DNA of 64,000 nucleotides, taken from the NCBI GenBank assembly GCA_019637805.1, contig JAHBVB010000002.1, forward strand, positions 575,981-639,980, written 5' to 3'. The notes beneath the pieces were generated by a model. That model did no database searches and was not told the origin of the DNA. It saw nothing but the letters and a program-made list of their open reading frames with translations. Shown piece by piece: positions 5,813-37,552 of this stretch. The number at the start of each line of letters is the position of its first letter. The first letter of the stretch is position 1. The DNA comes from Anaerolineales bacterium (GTDB lineage Bacteria; Chloroflexota; Anaerolineae; Anaerolineales; UBA11579). The position numbers and the translations under genes were made by a program.

Positions 5813-8800
5813 TAGCCGGCTCCTATAGTTTGCGGTTGCTGCACCAGGTTCATGGCCATCACCGCCGCCAGCTGGCGTTGGATGTCTCGGTCACGCGGGG
5901 CCAGGTTGGCAGCCCGGCGCAGCGCTTGTTCGGCGGCAGGGTAGTCCTTGGCGTCTTTGAGCGCCAAGGCGGCTTCATAATGCGGAGCAGCGGCTTGCGG
6001 GGCGGCCTTGGCCGCCTGCTCGAAGGCATTCAACGCGGCAGTGTGTTGGCGGCGTGCCAGAAAGACGCGGGCGCGCTCCATATGGGCATCGAACAGTTGC
6101 GGGGCCAGACGAGCGGCTTCATCCAGATGGTGCAGCGCCTGGTCCAGGTTGCCGGCTTGCTTGAGCAGCTGTCCCAGATGGAATTCGATCGAGGCCAACA
6201 GATTACTGGCACTGCCTGCAGCCGCTTTCAGGGCACTTTGCGCCGATTGGACGGCGGCCGGCAGGTCCCCCATCAAGGCCAACATTTGCGAAAGGGCGAA
6301 CTGCACCTCGACGCGGTCGGCATGTTTCCGGGCCAGCTGCTTCAGGGCCTGCAGTCCTTCAGACTGGGCCAGCAGTTGGGCGCGGCGCAGCAGCAGCGGT
6401 ACTTCGTCCGCTGCGTGCTGGGCGGCGCGTTCCAACACCGCGACAGCGTCCGAGCTTTGTCCCAGGGCATACAGCGCTTCACCAAAGATGCGCAAGGCAT
6501 CCGCATCCCGCGGGGCCAGCTCCAAGGCTTGTTGGATGATGTTCTTGGCGCGCGGCGCGTCGTCGCCTTCTAGGGTCAGTTGGGCTTGCAGGATAAGGGC
6601 TGCCGGGTCTTGCGGCGCGGCCTGCTGGGCACGTTCGGCCAGGGACTTGGCCGCGACTGCATCGCCTGACTGGCGCTTGGCCTGGGCCAGGGTCAGCAGA
6701 TAACTGGCCTGGTCTGGGGCCAGCTCCACGGCCTTTTCCAGATTGTCGATTGCAGCAGGCAGCAGCCTGGCTTCGGACTGGGCCATCCCGAGGGAGAAGA
6801 AGTGTTCAGCTTGCTCCGGCTCCAGCTCTGCGGCTAGTTGGAAGTGCTGGCTGGCCTCAGCCAGGCGGCCCTGGCTGTGCTGCAGCTTGCCTGCCAGAGC
6901 TTGCCAAGCGGGCTGCTCTGGCCAGAGGGATAGCGCAACTTGGATATAGTGCAAAGCGCGCTCGGTCTCTCCAGCCTGAAGTGCTTGCTGGGCGGCCAGC
7001 GCTTGAACCGGCGCCACACGGGGCATTTGGCTGGCGGCGGCTTGCAGTAATCCGTAGCTGTCGCCGCTGTCCGGGCTGAGGGCGCGCTGCAGTAAGACTT
7101 CAGGGGCGTCCCAATGGGGCTGCAGCAGGTATTGGACCTGGTGGCTTTGCTCGCCCAGGGCGAAAAGCAGGGCGGCCGCTTCGCCGGCGCAGGCCGGGTA
7201 TTCGGCGGGCAGCCCTTGCAGGTCTACGGCTTGGCCGAAGCGCAGCGCGGCGCGCTGCAGCCAGCCCGCCAAGTGAGCTTGCATGCGCGGATCATTATTG
7301 GCCAGCCCGGCGGCTTGGAACGCCTTGCTGGCGGTTCCGTAGGCTTCTTCATTCAGCGTTGCGGCTGGCAGGCCGCGGGTGGCGCCGGCTGCGCGGCACA
7401 GGTGCTGCCATTCCGCTTGGCGCACCAGCGCACGGCCCAGGCCAAACTGAGCGGCGGGCAATCCCGGGTGCTCTTTGCCCAGGCGGTTATGCAGGTCAAT
7501 GCTGGTGTCCCAGTCGTTGAGGCTTTCTGCCGCGGCGGCCAGCCCCAGCAGGCTGAAGACGTCTGGCGTGCGGCTTGGCTGGCTGGCTTGGCCGAACTCG
7601 GCGCGGGCTGTGCTCAGGTCACCGCGGGCGGCGGCCAGGCGCACTTGCAGGGCCAGCAGGCGGGCGCTGTCGAGTGGCACCAGGGTGTGCAGGGCGGTCA
7701 GCTGCTCGGTGGCGGCCACTTCCATCCCAGCGGACAGGTGCAACTCTGCTTGCAGGTAGAGCAGATCTGCGCTTTCACTCAGGTCCGTGCCTGCCAAAAT
7801 TTCAGCAGCGCGCTGGTCGTACAGGTTGAGTAATGCCAATTCCGCCGCATTCTGGATATAGTCCGCCTGGCCCGGATGGTGCTGCAAGGCCGCTTCGGCC
7901 GCCTGGAGGGCGCCGAACCAATCGGCTTGCTGGCGCAGCAGTTGGGCTTTGGCGTGCAATAAGCTGGCATCGCTCGGGCGCAGTTCCAATGCAGCGCTGA
8001 GCGCTTCCAGGGCGGCCTGGGGCCGGTCCAGTTGCAGCAAAACCCCGGCCTTAGCGGAGAGCAGAGCCGGCTTGGCAGGTGCAATGTCCAAGGCTTTTTC
8101 TAGAGCGCTAAGCGCTTTGCCAGGCTGCTCTGCCCGAGAATAAGCCTGGCTGAGCCCAAGCAGCCAATCGGCATTGAGGGGTTCCAACTTCAGGGCCTTT
8201 TGATAATAGGCAATGCTCTCTTTGGCCTGGCCATTTTGGCGCAGAAATTCAGCCGTTTGGCTGAGGATCTGGCTGTCACCACTGTCCAAAATAGACTTGA
8301 AGGTGGACAGGGCGATTGCTTGGGTGGCGCCGTTCCATTGCAGCTTGCCCAGCCCAAAGGCCAGGCGCGGGCTGGGCGATCCGGCAACCACCTGCTTGCT
8401 CAAGGCCCGGCAAGCCTCAGCGCTCTTGCCCAGGGCATCCATCTGCTCGGCAAACCACAGGATGGTTTCTTCGTCTTCGGGTTGACCCAGGTAGACCTTT
8501 TGGGCCAGCAGGGCTGCCTGTTCGGGACGCCCCGCCAATTGGTTGGCAGCGCATAGCGCCTGCAGAACCTGCAAGTCGCCAGGTTCGTGGATATCCAAAA
8601 TTTCCAGCGTATCAATGGCGGCTTTGGCGTCGCCCTGCTTCATCTCTGCCTGGGCCTTGCCCAGCAGCAGGCGTTTGCGCCAATCAGCCTGCTTGCCCAG
8701 TTCGGTTTGTTGGGCGGCATCGTATTGGGTGATGGCTTCGGTCTGGCGGCCCTGGGTGGCCAGCGCCTCGGCCAGCAGGCCAGCGGCTTCGGCGGGTGCA

Positions 8801-29795: not shown

Positions 29796-30434
29796 TTATC
29801 CAGATATGGCTTGCTGAGCGGCGGCCAGCGGCACCACATAGGTGCAGTGGCTGTCGCCGCTGAGCAGGCAGGAACTGCGGCGGGGTTCCACGGCTAGGAT
29901 GCGCGAGATAAGCGCTTTGTCGATGCCGCAGACCTCGCGGTGGGTTTGGCCGACATGGTAATAGGGGCAGCCCGTCTCGCGGATGATGATCTCGTCGGCG
30001 GTCTGCTCTACGTGCGCCAGGAAGCCTTCGTTGTTGAGGCATTCTTCCAGCAGGCTGAGGCGTTGCGGAATGCTGAGGTCGGTCAGATCCTGGTCGGCGT
30101 ACTTGGCCGAGATCGACTCGGCCATGCGCACGAAGATGCGGTTGTATTCTTCGACCGGGAGATGTTCTTTGATTTCGGCCAGCAAGTGGTTGGTGAAGCG
30201 AATAGTGTGGGTGGGGAAATGCTCGCGGCCGGCCTGGGTCAGGAAATATTGGCGGCGCGGGCGGCCGACACCGTGGCGCTCCTCGGCTGAGTCGACCAGC
30301 CCCTGGGCCTGCATGCGGCTGATGTGGTGGCGCACGGAGACGGGGTTAATGCTGACCGCTTCGGCCAGGTCATTGATCGTGCAGCGCTGGGCGGTGCGCA
30401 GGTGCTCCAGGACGAGATTGCGGGTGCTGCTCAT
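29796..30434 (-). CDS. sufR: SufR-like winged-helix Fe-S regulator of the suf genes
   Basis: A 212-residue DeoR/ArsR-type regulator. The N-terminal winged helix (VLEHLRTAQRCTINDLAEAV, VSVRHHISRMQAQGLV, GRPRRQYFLT) binds DNA. The C-terminal half has four cysteines able to hold a cluster, in GCPYYH, REVCGID, RSSCLLS and SHCTYVV. SufR proteins use a [4Fe-4S] cluster to repress suf genes when clusters are plentiful. Neighbours (sufT-like gene 21 bp downstream, sufCBD 1.5 kb away) and a shared 29-bp upstream sequence support this. ATG 30434 is used; two -10 candidates lie at 30445-30450 and 30475-30480. Confidence 0.82.
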   Translation of the reverse strand: MSSTRNLVLEHLRTAQRCTINDLAEAVSINPVSVRHHISRMQAQGLVDSAEERHGVGRPRRQYFLTQAGREHFPTHTIRFTNHLLAEIKEHLPVEEYNRIFVRMAESISAKYADQDLTDLSIPQRLSLLEECLNNEGFLAHVEQTADEIIIRETGCPYYHVGQTHREVCGIDKALISRILAVEPRRSSCLLSGDSHCTYVVPLAAAQQAISG

Positions 30435-30470
30435 GGGTAGCGGCAGTATATCATCGGCCCTCGCGAGCGT

Positions 30471-30500
30471 CAATATTATAGAATTTGTTCATAAATATTG
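30471..30500. promoter_or_regulatory. Predicted SufR operator and sufR promoter region
   Basis: A 30-bp dyad: CAATATT at 30471-30477 mirrors AATATTG at 30494-30500, and GAA mirrors TTC around a TTTG centre. Bases 30472-30500 recur without change at 31804-31832 before sufC. On the minus strand the element contains TATAAT (30475-30480), so a bound regulator would cover the sufR -10 box. Confidence 0.65.
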
Positions 30501-30504
30501 GCGG

Positions 30505-31098
30505 CTAAACCAGGCCAACCATATCGGCCGCGGAATAGACCAGCATCAGGGCGAGGACCACGTTTACCGCCAGCCGAATGCGCGGGAAGGCCAGATATTT
30601 CTTGATCAAGGTGCCGAACAGGGTCCAGGTGGAGATGGCCGCAAAGCAGCTGAACGTGAGCGGGATCAGAATCAGCAATAAGAACGGAATGTCCTTGGTG
30701 AACCCGGCCAGGAAGGTGGAGAACAAAGTCAGCGCGTAGATCAGCACTTTGGGATTGACGATCTGGAACAAGAAACCTTGCACGAAGCCCATCGGCTGCG
30801 CCTGGTCGTCTTCAAACTTGTAGGTGGTCTTCAAAATGCTGTAGGCCAGGTACAGGATGTAGAGCGAGCCCACATAACGCAGCACAGGCTCGATGCCGGG
30901 GATGGCGGTCAGCAGCGTGGCGGACACCAGCGCGGCGGCGAGCAAGACCAGATAGAAGCCGGCCGCACAGCCAAGCAGGAAGGGCAGCGAGCGCCGGTAG
31001 CCATACAGCACGCCCATGGCGGCGCTGGTGATGTTGTTGGGCCCGGGGGTGAAGTTCGCTACCAGGGCATAGGTGATGGTGGGCAGCCAGTTGAACAT
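30505..31098 (-). CDS. LysE/RhtB-family amino acid exporter
   Basis: A 197-residue membrane protein of about six segments. The family signature NFTPGPNNITSAAMGVLYGYRRSLPFLLGCAAGF is at the N-terminus, then LRYVGSLYILYLAYSILKT and FLFQIVNPKVLIYALTLFSTF. Such carriers export amino acids or homoserine-like compounds by proton exchange. It sits between the dinB-like gene and sufR, all on the minus strand; it has no evident link to Fe-S assembly. The substrate is unknown. Confidence 0.88.
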   Translation of the reverse strand: MFNWLPTITYALVANFTPGPNNITSAAMGVLYGYRRSLPFLLGCAAGFYLVLLAAALVSATLLTAIPGIEPVLRYVGSLYILYLAYSILKTTYKFEDDQAQPMGFVQGFLFQIVNPKVLIYALTLFSTFLAGFTKDIPFLLLILIPLTFSCFAAISTWTLFGTLIKKYLAFPRIRLAVNVVLALMLVYSAADMVGLV

Positions 31099-31130
31099 GA
31101 TGGCCTAAAGACGGCTGATCTGTGTTTTGC

Positions 31131-31601
31131 TCACTTCTGCAGCACGCACAGCGCCTGGCGGATCTCGCCCAGGTGGTAGGCAGAGTGGACCACGATGCTC
31201 AGTGCGCCGCCCATGGTGTCTTGATTCCACAAAGGATTGCGCTCAAACAGCCCGCGCATGCGCTCGTAGACCGTGCGCAACTGGTCTTTGTAGGCCTGCC
31301 ATTCTTCTTCGCTTACCTTTTCCACCGTGCGCCAGACGTGGCCCCAGTCCGGCGGGGTCTGATCGCCTTGCAGCGCGTAGCGCTCGAAAGATTCAATGTA
31401 GAAGATGACATGGGCCACTTGGGCGGCCAGAGAGCCGCACTTGCCGCCGACCGGGATGGAGGCTTCGGCGGCGCTGACGGTATCCAGCGTCTCCAGCAGG
31501 GAGTTCTTTTTGTCGAGGTAGATGCCCTTGTGGACAGCAAAGGTTTCGTCGAGCAGCTGGGTGATGGTGTTAACGAATTCCTGAGGTTCAATTGCGGTCA
31601 T
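31131..31601 (-). CDS. DinB-like (DUF664) four-helix-bundle protein
   Basis: A 156-residue helical protein: EPQEFVNTITQLLDETFAVH, AAQVAHVIFYIESFERYAL, then DTMGGALSIVVHSAYHLGEIRQ at the C-terminus. Spaced histidines (AHVIFY and HSAYHLGEI) fit the DinB/YfiT metal triad, which in relatives supports thiol-dependent transfer reactions. The ATG at 31601 follows CAGGAGC. The open frame extends upstream into a CA-rich stretch that I read as leader rather than coding. Confidence 0.75.
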   Translation of the reverse strand: MTAIEPQEFVNTITQLLDETFAVHKGIYLDKKNSLLETLDTVSAAEASIPVGGKCGSLAAQVAHVIFYIESFERYALQGDQTPPDWGHVWRTVEKVSEEEWQAYKDQLRTVYERMRGLFERNPLWNQDTMGGALSIVVHSAYHLGEIRQALCVLQK

Positions 31602-31690
31602 TTTTAGCTCCTGGATGTGTGTAGGTTGTGTTGTTCCGGTTGGTTTGGGCGAATGTGTGGGTTGTGTCGATTGTGTTGGTTTTGTTGGCG
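31602..31690 (-). promoter_or_regulatory. CA-rich, G-poor 5' leader of the dinB-like gene
   Basis: On the minus strand this stretch is built from ACACAACC-like units with very few G residues, so its RNA would be almost unstructured. If translated in frame it would give a Thr/Pro/Gln-rich extension (QSTQPTHSPKPTG). A weak promoter (TTGTCA, 17 bp, CACAAT) can be drawn just upstream. Confidence 0.4.
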
Positions 31691-31803
31691 CTTGACAAGC
31701 GGCTTGGCGAAGCGTGCGGTTTGCTGGCACTGCATATTCTGCATCATACATCAAAGCACTCCACAGCGGTCAAGAGGCATGCTTTGTCAAGGCGCCGGCA
31801 ACG

Positions 31804-31857
31804 AATATTATAGAATTTGTTCATAAATATTGACACTCTTAGCAAACCTGCTATAAT
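31804..31857 (+). promoter_or_regulatory. suf operon promoter with predicted SufR operator
   Basis: TTGACA (31830-31835), a 16-bp spacer and TATAAT (31852-31857) form a near-consensus promoter. The 29-bp element shared with the sufR upstream region occupies 31804-31832, overlapping the -35 box by three bases. The leader from about 31864 to 31970 contains AAGGAG before sufC. Confidence 0.75.
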
Positions 31858-31970
31858 CTCCCGTAATTACAACCAGGTTGAAAAATCCAGGCTAATGGCC
31901 TGATGGGTTGTCCAAAAATACGGTCAGCCCCCGACCAGCAAAGTCATTTGTCAAGGAGAATCTGCAGTTC

Positions 31971-32747
31971 ATGTCTGACTTAGTCATCCGCGATTTGCGC
32001 GTCAACGTAGCCGACAAAGAGATCCTGAAGGGACTGACCCTGACGGTGGAGCAGGGCAAGGTGCACGCGCTGATGGGCCCGAATGGCAGCGGCAAGAGCA
32101 CGCTGGCCTACACGTTGATGGGCCATCCCAATTATGAAGTGACTGGCGGAGAAGTGATCTTCAAAGACCAGAATATTTTGGAGTTGGAGCCTGACCAGCG
32201 CTCGCATTTGGGCGTGTTCCTGGCGTTCCAGTACCCGGTGGCGATCCCGGGCGTGAGCGTGGCCAACTTCCTGCGCTCGGCGGTGAATTCGCACCGCAAA
32301 GCGGCCGACCCGGAATACAAAGGCATTCCCATCCCGGAGTTCCGCACGCTGCTGAAAGAGAAGATGGACAAGCTGAAGATGGACCACAGCTTCGCCGGGC
32401 GTTATTTGAACGACGGCTTCTCCGGCGGCGAGAAGAAGCGCGCCGAGATCTTGCAGATGGCGACGCTGATGCCGAACATGGCCATTTTGGACGAGACCGA
32501 TTCAGGCCTGGATATTGATGCCCTGCGCAACGTGGCCGAGGGCGTGGAAGCCTTGCGCGGCCCGGACTTTGGGGCGCTGATCATCACGCATTACCAACGC
32601 ATTTTGAACTATGTCAAACCGGATGTGATCCACATCATGCTCGACGGGCGCATTGCTGAGACCGGCGGGCCGGACCTGGCGCTGAAGCTGGAAGAGCATG
32701 GATATGACTGGATCCGCGAGAAGCACGGTGAGGCTGCGGCCGCTTAG
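31971..32747 (+). CDS. sufC: Fe-S assembly ATPase SufC
   Basis: The ABC-type ATPase of the SufBCD scaffold complex, 258 aa. Walker A GPNGSGKST, Q-loop region FLAFQYPVAIPGV, signature FSGGEKKRAEILQ, Walker B MAILDETDSGLD and switch His in IITHYQRIL are all present. The open frame begins 63 bp earlier, but MSDLVIRDLRV is the family-like start and has AAGGAG upstream. It is the first gene of the suf operon. Confidence 0.96.
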   Translation: MSDLVIRDLRVNVADKEILKGLTLTVEQGKVHALMGPNGSGKSTLAYTLMGHPNYEVTGGEVIFKDQNILELEPDQRSHLGVFLAFQYPVAIPGVSVANFLRSAVNSHRKAADPEYKGIPIPEFRTLLKEKMDKLKMDHSFAGRYLNDGFSGGEKKRAEILQMATLMPNMAILDETDSGLDIDALRNVAEGVEALRGPDFGALIITHYQRILNYVKPDVIHIMLDGRIAETGGPDLALKLEEHGYDWIREKHGEAAAA

Positions 32748-32762
32748 CGCAGCACGAGGTGA

Positions 32763-34202
32763 ATGATGGCTTTGGATGAAAAGTCGATCGAACGACATAA
32801 AGACGATGCCGAGCTGTTGGCCGGCATTGATGAATATCGCTGGAACTTTGTAGACGAGATCAAGCCGGTCTATCGCTCAGGAAAGGGGCTGAGCGAAGAA
32901 GTGGTACGCATGATCAGCGCCAAGAAGGAAGAGCCGCAGTGGATGCTGGACTTCCGCCTGAAGGCGCTGAAGCATTTTGAAGCGCGCCCAATGCCGACCT
33001 GGGGCGGCGACCTGGCCAGCCTGAACCTGGACGAGATCTATTTCTACAGCAAACCCTCCGAGGGTGAAGGTAAGAGCTGGGACGAAGTGCCCGATGACAT
33101 CAAGCGCACCTTTGAGCGCCTGGGCATCCCCGAGGCCGAGCAGAAGTTTCTGGCCGGCGTAGGCGCCCAGTACGAATCCGAGATGGTCTATCACAACATC
33201 CAGGAGCATTTGGCTGAGAAGGGCGTGATCTTCAAGAGCATTGAGCACGGCCTGCGTGACCATGAGGATTTGTTCCGTGAATACTTCAGCACGATCATCC
33301 CGATCGAGGACAACAAGTTCTCGGCGTTGAATTCGGCAGTTTGGTCGGGCGGTTCGTTCGTGTATGTGCCCAAGGGCGTCAAGATCGAGATGCCCCTGCA
33401 GGCCTACTTCCGCGTGAACCAGGCGGACCAGGGCCAGTTTGAGCGCACCCTGATCATCGTCGAAGAGGGCGCCGAGGCCCATTATGTGGAAGGCTGCACT
33501 GCGCCGGTCTACACCACCGACTCGTTCCACAGTGGTGTGATCGAGATCGTGGTCAAGAAGGACGCCCGTTTCCGCTACACGACCATCCAGAACTGGTCGA
33601 ACAACATGTACAACCTGGTGACGCAGCGCGCCCACGTGCACGCCAACGCCACCATGGAATGGGTGGACGCCAACCTGGGCAGCAAGCTGACCATGAAGTA
33701 CCCCTCCTGCTATCTGCTTGAGCCGGGTGCGCACGGCGAGATCCTCTCGATGGCCTTTGCTTCCGGCCATCAGCACCAGGACACCGGCGGCAAGGTGATC
33801 CACTTCGCGCCCAACACGACCAGCAAGATCACCTCTAAGTCGATCAGCAAGAGCGGCGGGCGCGCTTCGTACCGCGGCCTGCTGAAGGTGCATCCCGGCG
33901 CGGAGGGCTCCAAGTCCAACGTGGTGTGCGATGCGCTGCTGCTGGACGACGCCTCACGCTCGGACACGTATCCTTACATTGAAATTGACGCCGAGGATGT
34001 GACCATTGGCCATGAGGCCTCGGTCTCCAAGGTCGGCGAAGAGCAGCTCTTCTATTTGATGAGCCGCGGCATGAGCGAAGAGCAAGCCGCCACCATGGTG
34101 GTTTCCGGTTTCATTGAGCCGCTGGTCAAAGAGCTGCCGATGGAATACGCCATCGAGATGAATCGTCTGATTCAACTGCAGATGGAAGGCTCGATCGGCT
34201 AA
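32763..34202 (+). CDS. sufB: Fe-S cluster assembly scaffold SufB
   Basis: A 479-residue Suf[21 protein letters not shown] near the start, [65 protein letters not shown], and the C-terminal core [20 protein letters not shown] with the Glu and His of the beta-helix. The conserved Cys of VEGCTAP is part of the sulfur path to the nascent cluster. A second ATG directly follows the first (32766). It is 15 bp after sufC. Confidence 0.96.
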
Positions 34203-34223
34203 AGCCGTCGTTTGAGGATACCG

Positions 34224-35573
34224 ATGACTGATAGCCCGAAACGCGTTGTTAAACGCAGTACTTCTGCTGGGCAGAGCACGAGCCGTGACTTTGCCTTCAC
34301 CGCCGAGATGATCCCCAATGGTGTGGCAGAAGCTGCTTTCTTGCATGAGTACCGGCAAAACGCCTGGGAACACTTCCAGAAGCTGGGCGTACCACAGACC
34401 ACCGAAGAAGCCTGGCGGCGCACTGACCTGCGCGGCCTGAAGGCCGGCAGCTTTAGCCTGCCCGCCGGTAAAGCGGCAGCCCAGCTGCCTCAGCCCCCCG
34501 AGCGGCTGCTGAAGCCGCTGGTGGGCGAGGGGCACGGCGGCCAGATCGTGATGGGTCCGGGCGAGACCCAGGTGACACTGAGTGAAGCGATCGCCAAGCA
34601 GGGTGTGGTCTTCACCGATATTGCCACGGCGGCCAAGCAGCACCCTGAGCTGCTGCAGAAGGCGCTGGGCCGGGCGGTGAAGCCCGATGAAGGCAAGTTC
34701 GCGGCGATGGCGGCGGCCTTGGCCGGCCGCGGCGTGCTGCTGTATGTGCCCAAGGGCGTGCAAGTGCAAGAGCCGCTGCATTCCGTGCTGTGGGGCCCGG
34801 GCACTGACCTGGCTTACCTCTCGCACCTGCTGGTGTGGGTGGAGGACGGCGCCTCGGTGACCTATGTGCACGAGGCGGCTTCGCCGGCGGAGAACGGCCA
34901 GACCATGCACTCCGGCATTGTGGAGTTGTATGTGGGCAACGGGGCCGAACTGCGCTTTGTGGAACTGCAATCCTGGGGCGAACACGTGTGGAACTTCAGC
35001 CACGAGCGGGCCGTGCTGCAAAAGGACGCCCGCCTGGACTGGATCTTTGGGGCGCTGGGCAGCAAGCTGACTAAGAACTTCTCCGAGATGAACCTGGAGG
35101 GTGAGGGCGGCTCGGCGCGCATGTCGGGCTTCTATTTCACCGATGGCGAACAGCACCTGGACCATGACACCCAGCAGAACCACCTGGCGGCGCACACCAC
35201 CAGCGACCTGCTCTTCAAGGGCGCGCTGGAGGAGCAGAGCCGCTCGGTGTGGCAGGGCATGATCTATGTCGCCCCCGGCGCGCAGCAGACGGACGGCTAC
35301 CAGGCCAACCGCAATCTGGTGCTGAGCCAGACGGCGCGGGCCGACTCGATCCCCGGCCTGGAGATCCTGGCCGATGACGTGCGCTGCACCCACGGCGCTA
35401 CCGTGGGCAAGATCAGCGACGAAGAGCTGTTCTATCTGCTTAGCCGCGGCATTGCGCGGGAAGAAGCGCGCCGCTTGATCGTGGAAGGCTTCTTTGATCC
35501 GATCATGCAGCGCATCCCGTTCGAGGGCGTGCGTGATCGCTTCCAGCAAGCTATTGTGGACAAGCTTAAATAA
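34224..35573 (+). CDS. sufD: Fe-S cluster assembly protein SufD
   Basis: A SufB paralogue of 449 aa that completes the SufBC2D complex. Marks include WRRTDLRGLKAG, GVLLYVPKGVQVQEPLHS, LVWVEDGASVTYVHEA, RFVELQSWGEHVWNFSHERA, and the closing RCTHGATVGKISDEELFYLLSRGI with the SufD His at the SufB interface. ATG 34224 follows TTTGAGGA; the TTG four codons upstream is unlikely. Confidence 0.95.
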   Translation: MTDSPKRVVKRSTSAGQSTSRDFAFTAEMIPNGVAEAAFLHEYRQNAWEHFQKLGVPQTTEEAWRRTDLRGLKAGSFSLPAGKAAAQLPQPPERLLKPLVGEGHGGQIVMGPGETQVTLSEAIAKQGVVFTDIATAAKQHPELLQKALGRAVKPDEGKFAAMAAALAGRGVLLYVPKGVQVQEPLHSVLWGPGTDLAYLSHLLVWVEDGASVTYVHEAASPAENGQTMHSGIVELYVGNGAELRFVELQSWGEHVWNFSHERAVLQKDARLDWIFGALGSKLTKNFSEMNLEGEGGSARMSGFYFTDGEQHLDHDTQQNHLAAHTTSDLLFKGALEEQSRSVWQGMIYVAPGAQQTDGYQANRNLVLSQTARADSIPGLEILADDVRCTHGATVGKISDEELFYLLSRGIAREEARRLIVEGFFDPIMQRIPFEGVRDRFQQAIVDKLK

Positions 35574-35613: not shown

Positions 35614-35898
35614 TTGGTAGACCTGCGTTTTACCTCCGCTCCCGACCGTGATGATCTGTATCAGGTCGGTGACCGGGTTGAAGTGTATTGTGACCACGAA
35701 AACGAGAAGAAAGAACGCGTGCGTGGTTGGATGGAAGGTGTCGTGGTCCAGGTGGACCCCAAGATCGTGGCCGTGCAGTTTACTGAGCCGGTGTATCTGA
35801 CCGACGGCTGGATGGTGCCGGACCATGTTCTGTGGTGCCCGCCCAACTCCTCCCAGATCCGGGCTGCCCGCAAGGGCAAGCGCCGCCCGCGGAGCTAA
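35614..35898 (+). CDS. Small SH3-like barrel protein inside the suf operon, unknown function
   Basis: A 94-residue protein: LVDLRFTSAPDRDDLYQVGD at the N-terminus, VEVYCDHENEKKERVRGWMEG, then VVVQVDPKIVAVQFTEPVY and a basic end (RAARKGKRRPRS). The alternating short strands look like a Tudor/SH3 barrel, and the tail could touch nucleic acid. The start is TTG at 35614 with GGAGG six bases before it. It lies between sufD and sufS, is co-oriented and ends 2 bp before sufS, so it is translated with them. I know no named family. Confidence 0.75.
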   Translation: MVDLRFTSAPDRDDLYQVGDRVEVYCDHENEKKERVRGWMEGVVVQVDPKIVAVQFTEPVYLTDGWMVPDHVLWCPPNSSQIRAARKGKRRPRS

Positions 35899-35900
35899 AC

Positions 35901-37148
35901 ATGACGATCTCGCCCCAGGCCGGCGCACTCGACGTAGATAAGATACGGGCAGACTTCCCCATCCTGCAGATGGAAGCCAGCCCTGGTGTAAAGCTGGCCT
36001 ATCTGGATTCGGGGGCCAGCAGCCAGAAGCCCCTGGCGGTGATCGAGGCGATGAACACCTACTATCGCAGCCAGAACGCCAACATTCACCGTGCGGTGTA
36101 CACCCTGGGGGAGGTGGCCACAGAAGCGTATGAGGCCGCCCGCGCCAAGGTGGCGAAATTCATCAACGCCTCCAAGCCGCGTGAGATCATCTTCACGCGC
36201 AATGCCACCGAGTCGGTGAACCTGGTGGCGCAGACCTGGGGCCGCGCCAACCTGAAGGAAGGCGACCTGGTGGTGCTGACCGAGATGGAGCACCACGCCA
36301 ACCTGGTGCCGTGGCAGATGCTGGCGGCCGAAAAAGGCATTCGCCTGGAATTCATCCCGGTGACCGAAGAAGGTATTCTGGACCTGGCGGCCCTGCCGGC
36401 GCTGCTGGAGCAAAAGCCCAAGCTGGTCAGCTTCACGGCCATGTCGAATGTGCTAGGCACCATCACGCCAGCGGCCGAGATCGTGCGCTTGGCGCACAAA
36501 GCCGGCGCGCTGGCGATGATCGACGGCGCGCAGTCTGTGCCGCACCTGCCCACGGACGTGCAGGCGCTGGACGTCGATTTCCTGGCTTTCTCGAGCCATA
36601 AGATGCTGGGGCCGACGGGGTTGGGCGTGTTGTACGGCAAACTCGACCTGCTGAATGCCATGCCGCCGTTCATGGGCGGCGGCGACATGATCAAACGTGT
36701 CGAGCTGCGCAGCTTCACCACCAATGAAGTCCCGCAGAAATTTGAGGCCGGCACCCCGGCGATCGCCGAGGTGGTGGGCCTGGGTGCGGCGGTGGACTAT
36801 TTGATGGCGGTGGGCATGGACGTCGTGGCGGCTTATGACCACGAGTTGACCGCCTACGCCCTGGAACGGCTGGAAGAGGTGCAAGGACTGAAAGTCTTCG
36901 GCCCGGGCATCGAGCACAAGAGCTCCAACGCCTCGTTCACCTTTGAGGGCGCGCACCCGCACGACGTGGCGGAGATCCTCAACCGCCACGGCGTGGCGAC
37001 GCGCGCTGGCCACCACTGCGCCATGCCGCTGCACAACAAATTTGGCATCCCCTCGACCACAAGAGCCAGTTTTTATTTGTACAATACCAAGGAAGAGATT
37101 GACCAACTGATCGAGGCGTTGTACAAAGTGAAGGAAATTTTTGGATAA
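35901..37148 (+). CDS. sufS: Cysteine desulfurase SufS
   Basis: A group II PLP-dependent desulfurase that feeds sulfur to the SufBCD scaffold, 415 aa. Motifs: RADFPILQ, YLDSGASSQKPLAVIEAM, FTRNATESVNLVAQTWG, the PLP-lysine in AFSSHKMLGPTGLGVLYG and the active Cys in RAGHHCAMPLHNKF. The start at 35901 follows the small barrel gene by 2 bp; the longer frame overlaps that gene. The last base is shared with the sufU start (TAATG). Confidence 0.96.
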   Translation: MTISPQAGALDVDKIRADFPILQMEASPGVKLAYLDSGASSQKPLAVIEAMNTYYRSQNANIHRAVYTLGEVATEAYEAARAKVAKFINASKPREIIFTRNATESVNLVAQTWGRANLKEGDLVVLTEMEHHANLVPWQMLAAEKGIRLEFIPVTEEGILDLAALPALLEQKPKLVSFTAMSNVLGTITPAAEIVRLAHKAGALAMIDGAQSVPHLPTDVQALDVDFLAFSSHKMLGPTGLGVLYGKLDLLNAMPPFMGGGDMIKRVELRSFTTNEVPQKFEAGTPAIAEVVGLGAAVDYLMAVGMDVVAAYDHELTAYALERLEEVQGLKVFGPGIEHKSSNASFTFEGAHPHDVAEILNRHGVATRAGHHCAMPLHNKFGIPSTTRASFYLYNTKEEIDQLIEALYKVKEIFG

Positions 37149-37552
37149 TGGACGACCTGTACCGCGAAGTAATTATTGACCGCTACCAGAACCCGCGCTT
37201 CCGCGGCGAGCTGGACCCGCACGACTATTCCTATCAGGACGACAACCCGGTGTGTGGCGACCATGTGCGCATCGACCTGCGCGTGGACGAGAACGACACG
37301 ATCACCGAGGCCAAGTTCAGCGGCGAGGGCTGCTCCATCTCGCAGGCTTCGGCCGACTTGCTGGTGGAGAAGGTCACCGGTATGAAGCTGGATGATGTGC
37401 GCCAGCTGGGCAAGGCGGACGTGTTGGAGTTGCTGGGCATCGACCTGGGCCCAGTGCGCCTGAAGTGCGCGCTGCTTTCACTGAAAGTGTTGAAGGGCGG
37501 CGTGTACGGTCTGGACGATGTGATGACCTTGGACGAACTGGCCGCTTCTTAG
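37148..37552 (+). CDS. sufU: SufU-type sulfur-transfer/scaffold protein
   Basis: A 134-residue IscU-like fold with the three ligand cysteines in NPVCGD, GEGCSIS and RLKCALLSL. In Gram-positive-type suf systems SufU is a zinc-dependent sulfur acceptor for SufS, replacing SufE. The start is coupled to the sufS stop by TAATG, fitting a direct partnership. No SufE gene is present in the operon. Confidence 0.94.
   Translation: MDDLYREVIIDRYQNPRFRGELDPHDYSYQDDNPVCGDHVRIDLRVDENDTITEAKFSGEGCSISQASADLLVEKVTGMKLDDVRQLGKADVLELLGIDLGPVRLKCALLSLKVLKGGVYGLDDVMTLDELAAS

Follow-up and report, generated by a model that had tools for sequence, protein, structure and literature searches.

SufR-type regulators control iron-sulfur (Fe-S) cluster assembly genes, and the available part of a 2021 review describes this control only from Cyanobacteria and some Actinobacteria (PMC8593673). 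In the accessible accounts, cluster-bearing SufR binds DNA and lowers expression of sufR and suf, and it releases the DNA when the cluster is lost (PMC8593673, PMC13421787, PMC11995493). The SufR site published there is CAAC-N6-GTTG (PMC8593673, PMC13421787). Synechocystis is reported to have a high-affinity SufR site for sufBCDS and a low-affinity site for sufR (PMC6034842). For S. avermitilis, the portion of the source at hand places CAAC-N6-GTTG over the -10 box and sufR at the head of the operon (PMC11995493). The literature matches listed included no work on a Chloroflexota SufR operator, curated regulon databases apart.

A perfect 29-bp direct repeat in an Anaerolineales bacterium (Chloroflexota) is probably the two-copy operator of the adjoining SufR-like Fe-S regulator, serving both its own gene and the suf operon. 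The window, meaning the whole 64,000-nucleotide stretch of DNA that was analyzed, carries the sufR-like gene and sufCBDSU in one neighborhood, so that the gene lies beside suf. The regulator gene (29796..30434, minus strand) encodes a winged-helix protein of 212 amino acids. Its start at ATG 30434 is backed by relatives, and the longest open reading frame opens at TTG 30473. Downstream of sufR is a gene for a SufT-like Fe-S assembly protein (PF01883; 29412..29774, minus strand). The plus strand carries sufC (31971..32747; TIGR01978), sufB (32763..34202; TIGR01980), sufD (34212..35573; TIGR01981), the cysteine desulfurase gene sufS (35832..37148; TIGR01979), and sufU (37148..37552; TIGR01994), all above the cut-offs of these models, and a Rieske-type ferredoxin gene comes after sufU. 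Two genes reading in the sufR direction lie between the operator copies: a LysE-type transporter gene (30505..31098, minus strand; PF01810, 60.7 bits) and a DinB-like gene (31131..31601, minus strand; PF12867, 21.2 bits with a cut-off of 24.8).

The regulator resembles SufR in domain structure and cysteine pattern. It has an N-terminal winged helix and three C-terminal cysteines arranged as C156-X12-C169-X27-C197, the same spacing as C203/C216/C244 of M. tuberculosis Rv1460 in the available account of that protein (PMC6034842). Together with C189 these cysteines are of the Fe-S ligand type, and each of the 21 aligned sequences has all four. The best curated match is SufR_cyano (TIGR02702), which spans positions 1-208 of 208 at 79.4 bits. 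The protein is called SufR-like because this score falls below the equivalog cut-off of 178.8. The matches from fold comparison were all generic winged-helix ones of the MarR/PadR kind (TM-score about 0.3 by query length), and those from searching solved structures by sequence were weak and of the ArsR type; neither search returned a SufR structure. The nearest named locus, among the best 80 of 323, is that of Anaerolineales bacterium TGS_CHL2, whose SufR-like protein is 100% identical.

The locus shares its general plan with cyanobacterial SufR but has a different site. As in Synechocystis PCC 6803, a winged-helix regulator with C-terminal cysteines is encoded next to suf, and autoregulation plus suf control is predicted here. 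The genes are divergent in most relatives: sufC is divergently oriented within 3 kb of sufR in 43 of the 48 genomes with a SufR match at E <=1e-40. CAAC-N6-GTTG, however, occurs neither in the window nor in any of the 44 sufR-sufC intervals, and one of 80 named upstream regions has it. An earlier note on this DNA had claimed that the repeat differs from the SufR sites of cyanobacteria and mycobacteria. The claim holds for cyanobacteria, and for Streptomyces as well, while its mycobacterial part rests on a SufR motif ascribed to M. tuberculosis. Unlike Synechocystis, with its two sites of differing affinity, many Anaerolineales have a single dyad that lies between the two -35 boxes. The SufR of Actinobacteria represses suf, as is proposed for the protein described here. 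In contrast to S. avermitilis, the dyad abuts the -35 box and the genes diverge. IscR is also an Fe-S-sensing regulator of Fe-S assembly genes, and the available text of the review places some of its sites within the -35 box (PMC8593673). It belongs to a different protein family, Rrf2, against which the window's regulator scores 19.8 bits with a cut-off of 30.

The two copies of the repeat are identical and are unique in the genome. Direct comparison bore out the identity of bases 30472-30500 and 31804-31832 over 29 bases (AATATTATAGAATTTGTTCATAAATATTG). This is the longest exact direct repeat of the window, which has no repeated 30-mer, and the only other repeat of at least 18 bases is an 18-mer at 6514 and 9142. 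The predicted operator copies, to which no strand is assigned, occupy the first 28 bases of each repeat (30472..30499 and 31804..31831). With up to three mismatches, this 28-bp dyad matches the window only at the two copies, and 100 shuffles gave no match. When the symmetric bases were scored across the genome (2.34 Mb), only the two copies matched perfectly. One further place had three mismatches, and a reversed-pattern control likewise gave one place. The dyad is imperfect, with nine of 14 pairs symmetric. Dyad symmetry alone was rejected as evidence, as 340 of the 63,973 segments of 28 bp are equally symmetric.

A sigma-70-like promoter follows directly after each copy, its -35 box overlapping the copy by two bases. 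The sufR promoter (30445..30473, minus strand) has the -35 box TTGACG at 30473-30468, a 17-nt spacer, and the -10 box TATACT at 30450-30445; TTGAC and the -10 box are kept in relatives. The suf promoter (31830..31857, plus strand) has TTGACA at 31830-31835, a 16-nt spacer, and TATAAT at 31852-31857, matching the consensus at 12 of 12 positions. The second copy had been described as abutting the TTGACA of the suf promoter, and it does so. The first had been placed over the -10 box of sufR, which proved wrong, since it lies upstream of the sufR promoter and reaches only into its -35 box. As direct repeats in front of divergent genes, the copies face the two promoters in opposite senses.

The dyad is conserved in relatives. 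This had been set beforehand as the test of the operator proposal, and it was run with 61 genomes, the window's own and 60 relatives (48 with a SufR match at E <=1e-40, 49 genes), and with named sufR loci, of which the best 80 of 323 were compared. The dyad lies beside the sufR -35 box in 79 of the 80 named loci, and the copies away from sufR precede sufC-sufB, the place of the window's second copy. In 78 loci the AT-rich dyad directly precedes a TTGAC -35 box; their ungapped consensus is close to AATATTTATGATAATTATCTAATATATTGAC. The 79th locus (L134) has the dyad with a divergent -10 box, and the remaining one (L110) has no dyad in the 149 upstream bases that are visible. Across the dyad from the sufR -35 box, 41 of the 78 loci have an inverted -35 box (GTCAA), accompanied by a divergent -10 box in 40. 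By this arrangement of promoter boxes, a single dyad is predicted to serve two divergent promoters, those of sufR and sufC, in many relatives. Where sufR and suf are apart (1 to 195 kb, or on separate contigs), each usually retains a copy.

Similar elements occur beyond the order. Locus L190 of G192, a genome of the same class but not of the order, carries a dyad much like that of the Anaerolineales. In family f29, from another class of Chloroflexota, eight sufR-like promoters have a different dyad, AATAAA...GGTTTT...TTTATT, directly before TTGACA (L191, L193, L194, L195, L197, L199, L202, and L203). Judged by eye, the other 12 of the 20 distant upstream regions, G192 apart, have no such element. 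The place therefore seems more conserved than the sequence, because the f29 dyad differs and yet likewise precedes TTGACA.

Pattern searches placed the dyad beside sufR or sufC. A pattern derived from the relatives, allowed up to three mismatches, gave 31 matches in the 61 genomes, representing 29 distinct places in 23 genomes. Each of the 31 adjoins sufR or sufC; with the pattern reversed there was no match. As the pattern came from these same genomes, the search tests where else the dyad occurs and not its existence. A related pattern in 12 genomes (11 of family f11 and G035) gave 20 matches: 11 beside sufR, seven beside sufC-sufB, and two elsewhere. For the seven sufC-sufB matches, the distance to sufR is 3 to 195 kb, or sufR is on a different contig. 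Two stray sites have three mismatches each, the genes being named by eye. One is a dyad just upstream of a gene for an Fe/Mn superoxide dismutase-like protein (L234, G121:C29:23678-23704), and the other is just upstream of a DtxR/MntR-like regulator gene (L239, G097:C8:247938-247964).

Profile models of the operator recovered most sufR-sufC intervals. Five of the 48 sufR genomes were left out before the 44 intervals were set: G046 and G058, in which the genes are far apart and the ends were read separately, and G034, G040, and G054, with contig ends. A held-out operator HMM was trained on 57 loci whose operators do not occur in the numbered genomes, and 1750 shuffles were scored with it. It put 31 of the 44 intervals above the shuffle maximum of 6.9 bits, and it missed the window's own interval and that of G010 (5.9 bits). 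It was therefore rejected as an independent detector, and conservation of the dyad in the window rests on position, flanks, and close relatives. A model that included the same genomes put 36 of 43 intervals above its shuffle maximum of 6.6 bits, with the window's sufR copy at 17.2; G026, G027, G032, G038, G047, G057, and G059 fell below. Seven loci of distant SufR paralogs all scored at most 2.4 bits in the held-out model.

Co-occurrence with sufR also supports the proposal of the earlier note, a SufR operator with autoregulation and suf control. Besides being conserved beside sufR and before sufC-sufB, the dyad is absent at suf in five of five genomes without a close SufR (G031, G037, G044, G050, and G060), which scored at most 2.4 bits against the held-out shuffle maximum of 6.9, although there are only five such loci. 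This reading is well supported but unproven, and the operator remains a predicted one.

A different reader of the site appears improbable. The dyad could serve a different iron or Fe-S regulator, of the Fur family or the Rrf2/IscR type, as the operator through which it controls suf, and merely adjoin sufR. The genome does encode one Fur and one Rrf2 protein above cut-off, the stray sites precede superoxide dismutase and DtxR-like genes, and the order consensus core TGATAATTATC resembles Fur-box hexamers. The window's core GAACAAATTC, however, departs from the hexamer, and the pattern matches in the 61 genomes are always beside sufR or suf. Nor does the site accompany Fur regardless of SufR: among the five SufR-less suf genomes, three (G044, G050, and G060) have Fur yet no dyad, which disfavors Fur as the reader of the site, albeit from three genomes only. 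Conversely, no Fur match was obtained in G053, an 83% complete genome that carries sufR and the dyad.

It is unlikely that the SufR-like protein binds the dyad but activates sufR and suf, despite a suggestive geometry. The center of the dyad is about 47 bases upstream of the expected transcription starts, directly upstream of the -35 box at both promoters, and among IscR sites within -35 boxes the available text reports that some activate and others repress (PMC8593673). Repression is favored because the suf promoter already matches the consensus fully and would hardly need an activator. The SufR proteins in the accessible parts of the studies also repress (PMC8593673, PMC13421787, PMC6034842). 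Very improbable indeed is that the repeat was merely left by the lysE-dinB insertion, as a target-site duplication or recombination scar, and has no part in regulation. Perfect direct repeats do flank the inserted genes, and the order of these genes varies among relatives. Genomes free of the insert nevertheless carry the dyad once, always beside a -35 box, and it has been retained where sufR and suf are separated by 3 to 195 kb. An origin as a scar and a function as an operator are not mutually exclusive.

The reading that best fits the repeat is that of a formerly shared SufR-like operator duplicated around the dinB/lysE insert. Within the genus, sufR is present in eight of 11 genomes. The dinB gene is found in seven of the 11, always inside the sufR-sufC interval, and lysE occurs only in such intervals. 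Seven of the eight sufR-bearing genomes have inserted genes with a dyad on either side, both dyads in one absolute orientation, and the eighth (G004) has no inserted genes, a sufR-sufC gap of 175 bp, and one dyad. The change from a shared to a double operator can thus be followed in the sequences themselves, as can the repeat, its placement at the promoters, its conservation, and its co-occurrence with SufR. Two dyads of at least 7 bits are present in 11 of the 44 intervals, the window's included. G042 (375 bp) and G053 (203 bp) have two dyads with a gap too short for inserted genes and may be intermediates.

Within one genome the two copies resemble each other more closely than do copies taken from different genomes. 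The summed identity of the within-genome pairs, 97, was reached by four of 5040 re-pairings, for seven lineages that are not all independent. In a tree of SufR, SufC, SufB, and SufD, the insert-free G004 is nested among insert-bearing genomes with 57% support, and a history in which the insert was gained once is not rejected (p-AU 0.26). A tree of SufR and SufC alone gave 85% support. Duplication of one shared operator around inserted genes would explain why the copies are direct repeats. By these comparisons the repeat is a real, conserved, predicted operator, and its duplication is well explained. The order of the inserted genes is permuted in the genus (30505-31601, L100-L103), being lysE-dinB, lysE-araC-dinB, dinB-lysE-araC, or dinB alone. 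No transposase or integrase gene was seen among them in the open reading frame lists.

A mechanism can be proposed by analogy with cyanobacterial and actinobacterial SufR, from which binding, repression over activation, and the cluster signal are inferred. The cluster-bearing protein would probably bind to each dyad in dimeric form, immediately upstream of the -35 box and partly within it, and would keep RNA polymerase off, lowering sufR and suf. When clusters are lost through iron shortage or oxidative damage, the protein would release the DNA and both would be transcribed. One dyad between the divergent sufR and sufC promoters would serve both in relatives. Here dinB and lysE would have come between the genes and the operator been duplicated, so that each promoter kept a copy. 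If confirmed, this extends SufR-type control of Fe-S assembly, with a different operator, to a large and mostly uncultured group of Chloroflexota, and it provides a motif for tracing the regulon in that group. It would also be an unusually clear case of one shared operator becoming two upon gene insertion between divergent promoters.

A broader proposal is possible but doubtful. Anaerolineales may have an order-wide SufR-like operator of a new sequence class that acts as one symmetric switch between divergent -35 boxes. Where genes land between these, the operator would be duplicated, the copies would evolve together, and one regulator would read both. The superoxide dismutase and DtxR-like stray sites would then be a first extension of the regulon. 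If true, the locus would show a natural sequence of stages leading from one shared operator to two.

Further observations concern the 5' ends of the two transcripts. With the start set 7 nt past the -10 box, leaders of at most 5 nt are predicted in 28 of 78 sufR transcripts (for example L149, L151, and L158; 30432-30450 in the window), and the sufR mRNA may therefore be near-leaderless. The accessible part of one study reports the Rv1460 mRNA as near-leaderless (PMC6034842). The suf leader contains a small dyad at 31868-31880, CAACCAGGTTG, with a similar CACCCAGGTTG or CAACCTGGTTG in close relatives. Its arms are CAAC and GTTG as in known SufR sites, with a spacer of 3 nt instead of 6 nt.
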